A DNA stretch of 54,135 bases, from the NCBI GenBank assembly GCA_024434165.1, contig QMIW01000018.1:1-54135 (forward strand), read 5' to 3'. Source of the DNA: Chloroflexota bacterium (lineage in GTDB: Bacteria > Chloroflexota > Anaerolineae > Anaerolineales > Villigracilaceae). Position numbers and translations under genes: made by a program. The notes below the pieces were generated by a model that did no database searches, was not told the origin of the DNA, and saw nothing but the letters and a program-made list of their open reading frames with translations. This document shows positions 29,216 through 34,382 of the stretch, piece by piece (position 1 is the first letter of the stretch; each line of letters opens with the position of its first letter).

Positions 29216-29779
29216 ATGCTCTCCCCCACTTCCCTCGTCCTCGTCTGCCTCCTGCCCACGCCGCGGGATTTGGAGATCGCCCGGCTGTTGGGCTGGTATC
29301 GCATCCCGCTGCGCACCGCGCCGAAAGTGGTCGCTGTGGACTTTCTGGCTTTTTACCAGCCCTCGGCATTCGGCGAACGCGGCGGACAGATCGAGTACAT
29401 CGCCGAAGTGCGCGGGCACGAACTGACCACCCGCGCGGAGTTGTTGAAAGACGAGCCGGAGCATCCGCGCGCCCGCGAAGAGTATTACAAGATTCAACTC
29501 GGCGGGCTGGAGAAACTGCGCGAACCCATCAAAACCGACAAATGGAAGCGCCTGACGTTTTTGTACTCCACCGGCGAGTACCTGATGAACGCAAAATCGC
29601 TCAACGACCTGGTAATCGAAGGCGAGGAACGCCAGCTGCTCTGGAAAAGCCTGCGCGAACGCGCCGAAAACGAGCAGTTGTACAAAACCGACCTGCCCGA
29701 AGCGGATATCCCGCCGGATGTGTTGATGGCATTGCTGGGAATCAAGGAACTCCAGGGGGACTACGCCAAATCCGAATAG
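29216..29779 (+). CDS. Conserved hypothetical protein
   Basis: 187 residues, mostly soluble. It opens with a hydrophobic strand ('SLVLVCLLPTPRDLEIARLLGWYRIPLR') and contains 'VAVDFLAFYQPSAFGERGGQIEYIAEVRGHELTTRAELL' and 'EYYKIQLGGLEKLREPI'. The pattern suggests an alpha/beta domain, possibly PD-(D/E)XK- or EVE-like, but no motif is decisive. I do not recognise a named family. The start has no ribosome site. Confidence 0.65.
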   Translation: MLSPTSLVLVCLLPTPRDLEIARLLGWYRIPLRTAPKVVAVDFLAFYQPSAFGERGGQIEYIAEVRGHELTTRAELLKDEPEHPRAREEYYKIQLGGLEKLREPIKTDKWKRLTFLYSTGEYLMNAKSLNDLVIEGEERQLLWKSLRERAENEQLYKTDLPEADIPPDVLMALLGIKELQGDYAKSE

Positions 29780-29829: not shown

Positions 29830-31437
29830 ATGCCCGCGGACCTGTTGTTCGTGACCCCTTCGTCCAGCCTCGGCGACACCGTAAAGCGTTCGCTGGAGGG
29901 AACGAATTTCTACCGAGTCCATGTTGTCAACAACAAGGCTTCTGCCGTTGTGCGCGCAGATGAAATCGGGGTCCCGCTGGCAATGTTGGATTATGCGCTT
30001 GACGAAGATTGGGTGCAGGAGATCGGCATCGCCCTTCGCACGGTCAGCCCGACGATCAATCTCATCATCCTCTGTGATGACCAGGATGCGCCGCCTGCGT
30101 TCGATGCACTGCGCCCCTGGATCCTTGTCCGCAAGCCGTTCAGATTGGCAGATTTTATGACCGCGATCAGTCAACCCCAGCCCCAGCCGAAGCCTGTCTC
30201 CCCATCCACCACCCTGTTGACGATGCCGTGGCTCAACGATGCCAACAAAGCCGCCCAGCACCTCACCCGGCTCACATTGGAATCCTCGGCGCAAGCCGCG
30301 TTGATCACCCGCAAAAACGACCTGTGGGCGTACGCGGGCGGTCTCTCGCAGAATGCCGCAAAGGAAGTGGCGCAGACCGTCACCCGCAACTGGGATGGAC
30401 AGAAAGGCTCGGACCTGCTGCGCTTCATCCGGCTGGAAAGCACCAAAGCCGAGCACATGCTGTACGCCACCCGCCTCACATCGGATACGGTGCTTGCGCT
30501 TGTCTTCGACGCCGAAACTCCCTTCAGCACCATCCGCGCACAGGCGAGTCAACTGGTGAGCGATTTCGGCGCGGAACGGACGGAATCCGCCTCCCAGCCT
30601 TCCCCAACCGAAACGGACGACGAACCGCTGAACATCCCGCCCATCTCGGATATTCTCTCCGACATCCCCGCCCCGAACCCCGAACCGCTCACTTCGCATG
30701 AATTCAGGCTCCCGCAAAAAGAGGAGCCGTTCGACCCCAACCAGACGCGCCTCTCGGAGCCGCTCTCGAACGCCTCCGTGTTCAGCCGCGAGCCTTCGCC
30801 CGCCGTTCGCCGGGGTCAACCCCCAGCGGTGAATCAGGTTCCGGGCGTGGTCGAGACCAAAAGTCAGGAAAGAGGCGGGGCGCAAACCGCTTTCGATGAC
30901 GTGGAAGTGACCGCGCCGTCGCGTCCCAAACCCAGACCGGAAACTCCCATCGCCCGCCCCCAACCCGGCGAAACGGATGTGACGCGCGAAAGTCCATCCA
31001 CCGAGGCGGCGAAGAAACTCGTCGTGGAGCCGGTCTCCGCCGGGCTGTATCACCTGACGTACGCCTGCCTGCTCGTGCCGCGTTTTTCGTCGCATTACAT
31101 CACCGGCGATCTTTCGGACCGCTTGAGTGAATGGCTGCCGGGCATTTGCATCGCCTTCGGCTGGCGGCTGGAGTTTTTGGCGGTGCGCCCCGAATACCTG
31201 CAATGGGTGGTGAACGTGCAGCCCAGCACCTCTCCCGGTTACCTGATGCGCATCATGCGCCAGCAGACCTCGGAAAAAATCTTCCTCGAATTCCCGCGCT
31301 TGAAGAAGGAAAATCCATCCGGCGATTTCTGGGCGCCCGGGTACCTCATCATGGGCGGTTCGCAGCCCCACCCGCCGCAACTGGTGCGCGATTACATCCG
31401 CCAGACACGCACGCGGCAGGGACAGGATAATTCGTAA
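29830..31437 (+). CDS. Receiver-like / Roadblock-like / degenerate IS200-IS605 (Y1) transposase-like fusion protein
   Basis: 535 residues in three parts. (1) Residues 1-115 resemble a response-regulator receiver: Asp54 after strand 3 and Lys102-Pro103 ('LVRKPF') are in place, but the acidic pair of strand 1 is missing ('DLLFVTPSSSLG'). (2) Residues about 130-246 resemble a Roadblock/LC7 domain ('AALITRKNDLWAYAGGLSQNAAKEVA', 'RLTSDTVLALVF', 'STIRAQASQLV'). (3) After a Pro/Ser-rich linker (247-400), residues 404-529 align along their length with Y1 transposases such as IS200 TnpA ('YHL', 'SPGYLMRIMRQQTSEKIFLEFPRLKK', 'DFWAPGYLI', 'VRDYIRQ'). The HUH metal motif is replaced by Tyr456-Leu457-Gln458; the catalytic-position Tyr522 is kept. 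It is probably a domesticated, non-transposing DNA- or RNA-binding protein. Confidence 0.7.
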   Translation: MPADLLFVTPSSSLGDTVKRSLEGTNFYRVHVVNNKASAVVRADEIGVPLAMLDYALDEDWVQEIGIALRTVSPTINLIILCDDQDAPPAFDALRPWILVRKPFRLADFMTAISQPQPQPKPVSPSTTLLTMPWLNDANKAAQHLTRLTLESSAQAALITRKNDLWAYAGGLSQNAAKEVAQTVTRNWDGQKGSDLLRFIRLESTKAEHMLYATRLTSDTVLALVFDAETPFSTIRAQASQLVSDFGAERTESASQPSPTETDDEPLNIPPISDILSDIPAPNPEPLTSHEFRLPQKEEPFDPNQTRLSEPLSNASVFSREPSPAVRRGQPPAVNQVPGVVETKSQERGGAQTAFDDVEVTAPSRPKPRPETPIARPQPGETDVTRESPSTEAAKKLVVEPVSAGLYHLTYACLLVPRFSSHYITGDLSDRLSEWLPGICIAFGWRLEFLAVRPEYLQWVVNVQPSTSPGYLMRIMRQQTSEKIFLEFPRLKKENPSGDFWAPGYLIMGGSQPHPPQLVRDYIRQTRTRQGQDNS

Positions 31438-31469: not shown

Positions 31470-31507
31470 AACGCAGAGTATAATGACCTCTGCGTTTTTA
31501 TTTTTTG
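31470..31507 (+). terminator. Rho-independent terminator after the fusion-protein gene
   Basis: Arms AACGCAGAG (31470-31478) and CTCTGCGTT (31488-31496) are followed by a long T-tract. The loop contains TATAAT (31479-31484), which could also serve as a -10 for polA, though no good -35 is seen. Confidence 0.85.
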
Positions 31508-31534
31508 CAGCGCAAGATAATATCTTGCGGCTGC
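31507..31534. promoter_or_regulatory. Palindrome just upstream of polA
   Basis: CGCAAGATA-A-TATCTTGCG (31511-31529), extended by GCAG/CTGC. It ends 13 nt before the polA ATG. It may be an operator or a dispersed repeat; no regulator is assigned. Confidence 0.45.
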
Positions 31535-31547
31535 CGGATGCAAACCC

Positions 31548-34382
31548 ATGCCCCCAACCCTTTACCTCATTGACGGACACGCCCTCGCCTACCGCATGTA
31601 CTTCGCCCTGACCGCCGGCGGGAACAGCCAACGCTGGCAGACCTCGAAAGGCGAGCCGACCGCAGGCACGTACGGTTTCGCGCGCGAACTCATCCGCGTG
31701 CTGGAGCAGGAAAAGCCCGAATATCTCGCCGTGGCATTCGACGTGGGCAAGACCTTCCGCGACGACATCTTCCCCGAATACAAAGCCACGCGCGAGAAAA
31801 TGCCGGACGACCTGCGCGCGCAGATTCAACGCATCCGCGAGATGGTGGATTTGTTCAACATCCCGCGCCTCGAAATGGACGGTTACGAAGCGGACGACGT
31901 GCTCGGCTCGGTGGCGCGCATCGCCGCGGAGCAGGGACTCGGCGTGAAAATCATCACCGGCGACCGCGACCTCCTGCAGCTCGTCAACGAACGCACGGCG
32001 GTCTATCTGGCGGGCGACGACCAAACGTACATCACCGAGGCGGACGTGGTCAAAAAACTCGGCGTGCGCCCAAATCAGGTGGTGGATTACAAAGCCATCG
32101 TCGGAGATACGTCCGATAACATCCCCGGCGTGAAAGGCGTGGGCGAAAAGACCGCGGTTGCCCTGCTCGAAAAATTCGGCACGCTGGACGACATCTACGC
32201 CAACCTCGACCAGGTGGAGAACCGCTGGCGCGGGAAATTCGAGGCAAGCAGGGAAACGGCTTACATGAGCCGCGATCTGGCGCGCATCAAAACCGACCTG
32301 AAAATCAAATTCGACTTCGAACATGCCAGGGTCGCGCCGTTCGACGGCTCGAAACTCGAAGCCTTTTTCAGGGAGTTGGAATTCCGAACGCTGTTGAGCA
32401 AAATTCCCGTCATCAGCGGCGCGGTTGCGGAAACTGCGCCCGAAACCCCGCGCCGGGGCGGCGAACCGGGCGCGTCGAAGGGACGGCGCGGCAAGCCTGC
32501 CGGGCAAATCCCGATGTTTGCCGAGGAACCCCAGCCCATCGTCGTGGAGATCAAAACGCCGGAGATCGAGGTGGTCGTCGTGGATTCGGATGCGAAACTG
32601 AAAGACCTGGCTGGAGAACTTGGCAGGGCGAAGGTCATTTCGTTCGATACCGAAACCACCGACACCGAAGAAATGAAGGCGGAACTCGTTGGCATTTCGC
32701 TGGCGGTGAAGGAAGGGCAGGGTTATTACATCCCCATCGGTCACATGACGGGGAACAACCTGCCGCTGGCGAAAGTCATCGAAGCGCTCAAGCCGTCCAT
32801 GACCAACCCGAAGATCGGCAAGATGGCGCACAACGCCAAATACGATTACATCGTGCTCACGCGGCACGGGCTGGTCGTCTCGCCGCTCACGTTCGATACG
32901 ATGCTGGCGGAGTTCATTGTGGACCCATCTTCGCGCAACATGGGCTTGAAGAACCTCGCCGCGGCGCGCCTGGGCGAAGAGATGACTCACATCGAGGAAC
33001 TGATCGGCAAGGGCAGAAAGCAAATCAGCATGGCGGATGTGGCCATCGAGAGCGTTGCCAATTACGCCGCCGCCGACGCCGAAATCACCCTGCGCCTCTT
33101 GCCCATCATGGAGAAGGAACTCAGGCGCGTGAACGGATTGAAAATCCTCGAAGACATTGACATGCCGCTGACGCCCGTCCTCGCGGAGATGGAAATGACC
33201 GGCGCATTGATTGACACGGAATTCTTCGGGGAGATGTCCAAAGACCTTGCGAAGCGCCTGGCGGAGATCGAAAAGGAAATTTACGCACATACCGGCAGGA
33301 CGTTCAACATCAATTCGCCCCAGCAGCTCTCGGATGTGTTGTTCAACCACCTGCGCCTCGAACCACCCGATAAGGGACGCAAGACGGCCACGGGCTTTTA
33401 CTCCACCTCGGCGGACGTGCTGGAAGCCCTGCGCGGCAGGCATCCCGCCCTGGATTTCATCCTCGAGCACCGCGAACTCTCCAAGTTGAAATCCACCTAC
33501 GTGGATGCGCTTCCGGCAGCGGTGGATGCGAAGACCGGTCGCGTGCACACCTCTTACAGTCAGATCGGAGCCGTGACGGGACGCCTCTCCTCGAACAACC
33601 CGAACCTGCAAAACATCCCCATCCGCACCGAAACGGGACGGCGGGTCCGCAATGGGTTTATCGCCGGTAAAGGCAGTCTTCTGCTCTCGGTGGATTACTC
33701 GCAGATCGAACTGCGTATCGTGGCGCACATGGCGCAGGATGAAGCCATGCTCGCCGCCTTCCGCGTGGGAGAAGACATCCACGCCACGACCGCCGCCGCC
33801 ATTTACGATCTTCCGCTCGAAAGCGTCACCAAAGACATGCGCCGTCATGCCAAAGCCATCAACTTCGGGTTGATCTACGGCATGTCGGCGTTCGGGCTGA
33901 CGCGCTCCACCGAACTGACGCTCGCCGAGGCGGAGGACTTTGTGAAGGCGTATTTCAGGAAGTTCCCCGGCATCAAGAAGTACCTGGACGGCATCCGCCG
34001 CCAAGCCGCGGAGGTGGGCTACGTGGAAACCCTGCTCGGACGCAGGCGCTACTTCCCGGCATTGCAGGGCAAGGTCAACGTGCAGATGAAGAACCGCGAG
34101 GAACGCGAAGCCATCAACGCGCCCATTCAAGGCACGGCAGCAGACATCATGAAGATTGCGATGCTCAAAATCCCGCCTGCTTTGAAAGCCGCTGGGCTGA
34201 ACGCCAAAATGCTCCTGCAAGTGCACGACGAACTGGTGCTGGAAGTCCCCAAAAAGGAAATCGAAGCAGCCGCCAATGTGGTGCGCGAGACGATGGCGAA
34301 CGCCTACGCCATGAGCATTCCGCTCGAAACGGAAGCGCGAGCAGGCGTCAATTGGGGCGAGATGACAGTGCTGAGTAGGTAG
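31548..34382 (+). CDS. polA: DNA polymerase I
   Basis: 944 residues with all three domains. The 5'-nuclease domain is at 1-290 ('YLIDGHALAYRMYFAL', 'VAFDVGKTFRDD', 'EADDVLGSVARI', 'ITGDRDLLQLV', 'GDTSDNIPGVKGVGEKTA'). The 3'-5' exonuclease is at about 345-540, with an intact catalytic set: 'SFDTETTD' near 367-369, 'HNAKYDY' and 'YAAADAEI'. The polymerase domain has motif A 'LSVDYSQIELRI' (about 715), motif B 'RHAKAINFGLIYG' (about 770) and motif C 'VHDEL' (about 892). Unlike Thermus-type enzymes, proofreading residues are conserved. It fills gaps and removes RNA primers. No clear ribosome site precedes the ATG. Confidence 0.98.
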   Translation: MPPTLYLIDGHALAYRMYFALTAGGNSQRWQTSKGEPTAGTYGFARELIRVLEQEKPEYLAVAFDVGKTFRDDIFPEYKATREKMPDDLRAQIQRIREMVDLFNIPRLEMDGYEADDVLGSVARIAAEQGLGVKIITGDRDLLQLVNERTAVYLAGDDQTYITEADVVKKLGVRPNQVVDYKAIVGDTSDNIPGVKGVGEKTAVALLEKFGTLDDIYANLDQVENRWRGKFEASRETAYMSRDLARIKTDLKIKFDFEHARVAPFDGSKLEAFFRELEFRTLLSKIPVISGAVAETAPETPRRGGEPGASKGRRGKPAGQIPMFAEEPQPIVVEIKTPEIEVVVVDSDAKLKDLAGELGRAKVISFDTETTDTEEMKAELVGISLAVKEGQGYYIPIGHMTGNNLPLAKVIEALKPSMTNPKIGKMAHNAKYDYIVLTRHGLVVSPLTFDTMLAEFIVDPSSRNMGLKNLAAARLGEEMTHIEELIGKGRKQISMADVAIESVANYAAADAEITLRLLPIMEKELRRVNGLKILEDIDMPLTPVLAEMEMTGALIDTEFFGEMSKDLAKRLAEIEKEIYAHTGRTFNINSPQQLSDVLFNHLRLEPPDKGRKTATGFYSTSADVLEALRGRHPALDFILEHRELSKLKSTYVDALPAAVDAKTGRVHTSYSQIGAVTGRLSSNNPNLQNIPIRTETGRRVRNGFIAGKGSLLLSVDYSQIELRIVAHMAQDEAMLAAFRVGEDIHATTAAAIYDLPLESVTKDMRRHAKAINFGLIYGMSAFGLTRSTELTLAEAEDFVKAYFRKFPGIKKYLDGIRRQAAEVGYVETLLGRRRYFPALQGKVNVQMKNREEREAINAPIQGTAADIMKIAMLKIPPALKAAGLNAKMLLQVHDELVLEVPKKEIEAAANVVRETMANAYAMSIPLETEARAGVNWGEMTVLSR

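Follow-up and report, generated by a model that had tools for sequence, protein, structure and literature searches.

The window analysed here is the whole stretch of 54,135 nt of contig QMIW01000018.1 (assembly GCA_024434165.1) from a Chloroflexota bacterium of the family Villigracilaceae (Anaerolineales, Anaerolineae), called the host family below. The open reading frame at 29830–31437 on the forward strand encodes a protein of 535 amino acids, in which the reading frame, Pfam and an AlphaFold2 model delineate a receiver-like domain, a Roadblock/LC7 domain, a linker and a Y1 (TnpA-like) domain. It is followed on the same strand by a hairpin (31470–31496) with a T-rich tract and by polA, the gene of DNA polymerase I (31548–34382, assigned by Pfam and synteny). 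The upstream gene (29216–29779) encodes 187 amino acids without a Pfam or NCBIfam match, and related genes occur at 33 of the 80 named loci. The named loci come from species genomes with Chloroflexota titles, nearly all of them MAGs, and lean toward close relatives because the best 80 of 174 were kept.

The AlphaFold2 model of the full protein was built from an alignment of 50 sequences. Its pLDDT exceeds 90 across most of the receiver and Y1 parts and is mixed in the Roadblock part, and the linker is disordered. The three domains claimed by a first-pass annotation of the DNA (receiver-like, Roadblock-like and Y1) were all confirmed by profile and/or fold matches. The receiver occupies residues 1–115 (29830–30174; pLDDT about 90–96 as far as residue 110). 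Taken alone it matches Pfam weakly (E 0.088), and a receiver match at E ≤0.1 is found in 26 of the 50 members of alignment A2 (best 6.1e-8). Residues 1–118 superpose on YycF (3f6p) with Z 16.3 and rmsd 2.2 over 116 residues (VIA-align). Residue conservation was counted in an alignment of 73 rows, namely 72 full-length relatives from named assemblies and the window protein. Asp54 (29989–29991) is kept in all 73, and Lys102 and Pro103 in 72 each. The acidic Mg-binding pair is gone: position 9 is Thr in 66 rows, Ser in six and Ala in one, position 10 is Pro in 56 of 73, and neither holds Asp or Glu. The absence of the acidic pair thus stands as first described, but with Asp54 and Lys102 retained the domain is less degenerate than was implied.

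The Roadblock/LC7 domain comprises residues 130–248 (30217–30573). The Pfam family PF03259 is not detected in the window protein at E values up to 1; in one relative (L173) it is found at E 0.035, under the cut-off, and a PDB profile search leads to MglB at E 0.056. The fold is clear. Modelled alone, this part reaches a pLDDT of 83 and superposes on 3leq with Z 13.8 and rmsd 2.4 over 100 residues, with further matches to p14 and MglB; Foldseek gives E 2.2e-06 to 3cpt_B. Judged by their titles and our own reading, the 50 fold-match rows shown all represent chains of roadblock, longin or Rag type. In a domain-by-domain comparison with Pfam the Y1 part is therefore significant, the receiver weak and the Roadblock/LC7 part unmatched in the window protein, so that the assignment of the latter two relies on folds and relatives. 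The domain is under purifying selection (dN/dS 0.000–0.073 in 11 pairs).

The linker (residues 249–406, 30574–31047) has pLDDT below 50 across most of its length and is acidic, with a mean net charge of −8.9 for residues 252–395 over the 73 rows. It harbors a short conserved motif at residues 269–284 (30634–30681), roughly I-P-x-I-x-x-I-L-x-D/N-I/V-P-x-P-x-P, in which Ile272, Ile275 and Pro282 are found in 73/73 and a short helix is predicted at residues 272–276. This motif is a likely candidate for a docking site.

The C-terminal domain (residues 407–530, 31048–31419) belongs to the Y1 transposases. Pfam PF01797 (Y1_Tnp) matches residues 407–525 at E 3.8e-12 with 46.8 bits (cut-off 23). NCBIfam NF033573 gives E 6.7e-14 and 52.2 bits with the full protein, just missing its cut-off of 55, and 56.2 bits with the domain alone. 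The TnpA chains 2ec2, 2fyx and 2xma were matched in the PDB at E 1.3e-09 to 1.5e-08. Residues 400–511 of the model superpose on 2ec2 with Z 16.3 and rmsd 2.0 over 111 residues (VIA-align), and the Y1 model superposes on 2fyx with Z 16.2 and rmsd 3.0 over 129 residues. Both the significant profile match and the superposition of the model on the TnpA fold thus agree with the proposed identity.

As was noticed at first reading, the HUH metal site is replaced by Tyr456-Leu457-Gln458 (31195–31203), while Tyr522 (31393–31395) occupies the catalytic position. Tyr456, Gln458 and Tyr522 are each invariant in the 73 aligned sequences, and HUH is absent from all of them. In a wider family set the position of Tyr522 is taken by Phe in 7 of 49 sequences. 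Position 412 is Ala in 73/73, as against His in 19 of 20 ordinary TnpAs. None of 31 domain rows from several families has both histidines of HUH (three keep one), in contrast to 18 of 20 IS-type TnpAs of the same phylum; the catalytic position in these 31 rows is Tyr in 20, Phe in ten and Leu in one. In a tree of 51 rows the 31 HUH-less domains, including the window protein and six stand-alone genes described below, are separated from the 20 IS-type TnpAs with a branch support of 100/99, where the IS rows were chosen among Y1-profile hits and so represent near relatives and not a random sample, and several rows are long-branched. A TnpA-like protein from outside the class (L282) has PDRVYL at the place of HUH and Phe at the Tyr position and is possibly another dead Y1.

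The surface of the domain was considered with respect to the nucleic-acid-binding output proposed for it. Of the 12 columns that are Lys or Arg in at least 60% of the 20 ordinary TnpAs, six are kept basic in the host family, and six new conserved basic columns were gained; on the other side, the remaining six columns and three histidines (position 412 and both of HUH) were lost. The mean net charge of residues 400–535 is +1.7 over the 73 host-family rows (+4.8 over 16 rows when counted from residue 406), as compared with +6.8 in the 20 ordinary TnpAs and −3.7 in nine deeper relatives. Since the domain is strongly acidic in four of these nine (net −10 to −6), it is unlikely that DNA binding of the ancestral style is a function shared by all relatives. 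A family-specific nucleic-acid-binding surface is possible, so the proposed output role has partial support.

The protein is widespread in the host family, with matches in 144 of 150 genomes and in 26 of 26 genera; nine genomes of one genus match solely from residue 98–133 onward. Across the class the profile matched in 278 of 396 genomes, and among the class matches listed outside the order most represent the receiver and/or LC7 part alone. A profile of the Y1 domain matched in 90 of 350 genomes of the phylum. Among the matches listed outside the class the strongest has E 3.7e-25 and most frames are short and TnpA-like, so the specific HUH-less lineage was detected only inside the class. The Y1 domain shows dN/dS of 0.000–0.040 in 11 pairs and the linker 0.058–0.302, values to be read with dS often near 1 and with the receiver value absent for one pair. 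In its own genome (4.4 Mb) the protein has a single match, and the TnpB-type domain PF07282 is unmatched throughout that genome, which extends the earlier claim that no TnpB partner lies nearby. Two side observations concern this material. In a 95%-identical relative (L015/L061) the gene shifts frame near residue 430, which may be a sequencing error in the MAG. A short, intact-looking TnpA with an HMH motif lies elsewhere (L001:1444-1911, G000:C167), between genes that we read as pyruvate dehydrogenase-type E1 subunits.

The Y1 transposase domain of this protein was domesticated in the distant past. It no longer has the metal-binding motif for cleavage, and it is joined to a pseudo-receiver and to a Roadblock/LC7 domain. 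The single copy of the gene, its presence in 144/150 genomes, purifying selection, synteny with polA and the 100/99 split of the tree all argue for domestication and against a mobile element, in accord with the first-pass annotation. The significant Y1_Tnp match and the Tyr at the catalytic position in 73/73 could also be expected of an ordinary or recently inserted IS200/IS605 transposase misread as a fusion through an accident of annotation or assembly, but HUH is absent in 73/73, the genome holds one match to the protein and no TnpB-type domain, the site before polA is fixed in most named loci, and 72 full-length relatives exist in named assemblies. An active IS or a recent insertion is rejected on these grounds, and the probability of an accident is negligible.

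The place of the gene before polA, which had been described as stable, was borne out: polA lies 3' of the gene on the same strand in 73 of the 77 named loci having more than 1500 b of room, and likewise in 18 of 20 loci of a second set from host-family genomes, several of which are the same contigs. In two host-family loci (L042, L052) polA was not seen in the stretch fetched. Counted by gene order, polA occupies position +1 in 65 of 74 loci. Conservation is fairly high upstream as well, where two other families take up 28 of 75 places each just before the gene. At +2 a gene for a TPR protein of about 780 amino acids is found in 45 of 68 named loci, giving the order protein-polA-TPR in most relatives; it is also present in 16 of 20 loci of another set and, near the cassette, at two loci of f2 and one of f23. 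In the genome of the window the TPR gene is not beside polA and lies on another contig (G000:C88:18454-20784, L294). The TPR protein resembles SgmX no better than other TPR families, under every cut-off. Neither this gene of the relatives nor the conserved hairpin before polA had been listed at first reading, and both bear on function. The eight scanned neighbours include no small GTPase and no histidine kinase; a small GTPase gene exists elsewhere in the genome, on another contig.

Related genes stand directly before polA in nine further families (f2, f3, f12, f13, f23, f31, f38, f51 and f56), with differing sets of domains. In f2, f23 and f51 the receiver, LC7 and HUH-less Y1 domains are all present (the f23 frames have 954–1204 amino acids), and in f4 a gene with these three domains lies 2.9 kb from polA. 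The genes of f3, f12, f13, f31 and f56 have receiver and LC7 and no Y1, with LC7 weak in f12 and f31, and f38 has LC7 alone. Y1-less relatives include L172, L173, L180, L238, L239 and L254. No polA was found in the fetched stretch of three f13 loci (L174, L175, L176), of L170 (f37) and of L178 (f58). A survey anchored on polA covered 40 families with one genome each; 35 had more than 1 kb upstream of polA, and such a gene was present in six of them and absent in 29. The survey profiles were rebuilt over three rounds and took in survey sequences, so their E-values are inflated. Profiles made of host-family sequences only recover LC7 in L239, L248, L260 and L270 (E 2.4e-17 to 5.2e-7) and Y1 in L270 (1.4e-7); LC7 in L238 is weak (0.021), and LC7 in L254 and Y1 in L248 fall short of E 0.05, the Pfam Y1 match of L248 being E 9.7e-4, under the cut-off. 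As to a common architecture and polA neighbourhood in Anaerolineae, both hold in the host family (73/77 loci) and in f2, f23 and f51, but not in the 29 of 35 other families in which no such gene was found before polA.

The same HUH-less Y1 domain is also encoded alone, in six short open frames of 182–231 amino acids (stop to stop). Three of them (L162:6826-7371, L163:6618-7199 and L164:3327-3884) belong to a shared cluster with a Mrr-type restriction protein and a TPR gene, with a histidine kinase also present in L162 and L164. This cluster looks defence-like, and the Mrr-type protein of L163 matches the PADLOC candidate PDC-S02; the window protein itself is unmatched in PADLOC. The fourth frame (L165:137-769) adjoins an MCP gene, the fifth (L166:6222-6914) is near MCP, CheW, MotA and MotB genes, and the sixth (L167:6483-7061) lies next to genes for an OmpR-type response regulator and for a hybrid kinase. 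Thus three of the six loci hold Mrr-type and TPR genes and five hold histidine-kinase, response-regulator or chemotaxis genes. The pairing of Y1 with TPR recurs in two settings, since TPR genes occur both at these loci and at the polA loci.

Between the gene and polA a hairpin of the form GCGCAGAG-TATAAT-nn-CTCTGCGC is conserved in 51 of 81 loci, a total that includes two loci with insufficient sequence beyond the stop codon. In the window (31470–31496) it reads AACGCAGAG-TATAATGAC-CTCTGCGTT, has an RNA fold z of −6.8, and a T tract follows the stem with the TATAAT loop. In 25 aligned loci of the 51, six inner pairs are invariant and in two outer pairs both bases are exchanged, with eight cells of two-sided change observed against 2.1 in shuffles. 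The exact form has one copy in the 4.4-Mb genome. Only the TATAAT form is specific, because a looser pattern without TATAAT gives two sites in the genome and its reversed control one. A number of additional loci show, by eye, the GCAGAG arm with other loops. Pairwise identity of the arm end averages 0.43, compared with 0.37, 0.38 and 0.27 for hairpins after three other genes, and is no higher because the arm shifts register where the loop ends in A. With the four register variants summed (31+15+2+2) the arm accounts for 50 of the 60 hairpins after this gene, while the commonest single arm of the controls accounts for 7/32, 5/16 and 2/17.

This hairpin may be a terminator of the gene, a promoter-operator of polA or a site bound by the protein itself. 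With a hairpin and T tract between them the gene and polA need not share a transcript, and the case for a common operon is weakened by terminator-like hairpins, which occur in 51 of the 73 stretches between the two genes. Upstream of the TATAAT loop, inspection by eye revealed no conserved −35 box. Three f23 loci (L177, L179 and L248) have no hairpin, yet show TATAATC in the gap before polA (by eye), which favours a −10 box reading of TATAAT. The hairpin was absent from the f2, f3, f13, f23 and f56 loci inspected. It is also absent in L118, L125 and L128, which have the three most basic Y1 domains of 16 family rows (net +10, +8 and +7), so that, inside the host family, the presence of the hairpin does not follow how basic the Y1 domain is. 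A second palindrome with a perfect stem, CGCAAGAT-AAT-ATCTTGCG, is located just before polA (window 31511–31529), and a similar one is found in L061.

Our tentative preference, held with somewhat less than even confidence, is that the protein is a non-enzymatic dimeric scaffold or regulator of a unit formed with polA and the TPR gene. The folds, the dead enzyme site, the split of the tree, purifying selection, synteny with polA and TPR and the contexts of the stand-alone genes lead to this reading. LC7 and Y1 are dimer-forming folds in known relatives, and together they would make the protein a homodimer. The receiver, with Asp54 and Lys102 and no acidic pair, may serve as an interaction surface or a conditional input surface. 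Partners would dock on the conserved linker motif and on the surface of Y1, whose old active site now carries the invariant Tyr-x-Gln; the best candidates are the TPR protein and DNA polymerase I. In this way the protein might govern how much DNA polymerase I is available for gap filling and repair, where it is located or how active it is. Against this stand the 29 of 35 families with no such gene found before polA, the loci without polA, the distance of 2.9 kb to polA in f4, the Y1-less relatives, the genomes of one genus that match only from residue 98–133 onward, the TPR gene located away from polA in the genome of the window, and the hairpin and T tract between the genes.

It is possible, though rather unlikely, that the protein acts instead through the hairpin, the Y1 domain having kept the ancestral hairpin recognition and repressing or tuning its own gene and/or polA. 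The TATAAT-loop hairpin in 51/81 loci with invariant inner and co-changing outer pairs, its one exact copy in 4.4 Mb, the lesser likeness in arm sequence of the hairpins after three other genes, and a mildly basic host-family Y1 with 6/12 basic columns kept all agree with such a role; so does the recognition of secondary structures at IS ends by TnpA-IS200 (PMC6006769). Yet the T tract permits an ordinary terminator, the most basic rows (L118, L125, L128) and the loci of f2, f3, f13, f23 and f56 are without the element, and six basic columns and three histidines of TnpA are lost. An unlikely alternative makes polA a mere neighbour and places the protein in a GTPase/polarity-type module of receiver, roadblock and TPR proteins, like RomR, MglB and SgmX in Myxococcus. 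The LC7 fold is indeed near MglB and p14-type proteins, the TPR gene is conserved, a small GTPase gene is present in the genome, and stand-alone Y1 genes lie near MCP, CheW, MotA/MotB, kinase and response-regulator genes. However, polA is the most conserved neighbour (65/74 at +1 against 45/68 for TPR at +2), Y1-less relatives still adjoin it, the GTPase is on another contig, and the TPR protein is no closer to SgmX than to other TPR families. A broader scheme appears quite improbable: catalysis would be lost but the hairpin kept as a single-copy operator or RNA element, a protein controlled by its receiver and roadblock would sense the hairpin or ssDNA and adjust how much DNA polymerase I is supplied or how active it is, and the HUH-less Y1 would then have been put to a second use, as an adaptor encoded on its own next to TPR, Mrr, kinase and chemotaxis genes.

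The family represents an old lineage in which a Y1 fold stayed under strong selection after loss of the enzyme site, joined to signalling domains and tied to polA. It offers a testable case in which the DNA-handling fold of a selfish element has taken on a regulatory role, and it suggests that a core repair polymerase of Anaerolineae has an unexpected partner or regulator. To our knowledge, the domesticated Y1 transposases described so far (RAYTs) kept the enzyme site.

The literature search, with PMC9481161 among its hits, turned up no description of a receiver-Roadblock-Y1 architecture, consistent with the initial statement that no described system with this order of domains was known. The parts are each familiar. 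With response regulators and pseudo-receivers the protein shares the CheY-like fold, Asp54 and Lys102-Pro103; in contrast to them it has no acidic pair, no usual output domain and no histidine kinase among its eight neighbours. With MglB and CvnB it shares the fold of the Roadblock domain (M. xanthus MglB is matched with Z about 12), whereas here the domain is set between receiver and Y1, has no Pfam match and is encoded with no small GTPase gene within the eight neighbours scanned; small-GTPase systems do include Roadblock proteins and response regulators (PMC4316618). The Y1 fold, the Tyr at the catalytic position and the conserved region of Trp501 are common to it and to the TnpAs of IS200/IS605 (IS608, ISDra2). 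Unlike those, it has Y-[L/I/V]-Q in place of HUH, has lost half of the basic columns, and forms the C-terminal part of a multi-domain protein of 535 amino acids with no sign of mobility and no TnpB-type domain. TnpA-REP (RAYT) has been called the first prokaryotic domesticated transposase (PMC8266576). The present protein resembles it in having a domesticated Y1 domain at low copy. The RAYTs have a HUH enzyme site and are associated with REP palindromes present in many copies, whereas the protein described here has lost HUH, and the palindrome next to its gene occurs once in exact form in the genome.
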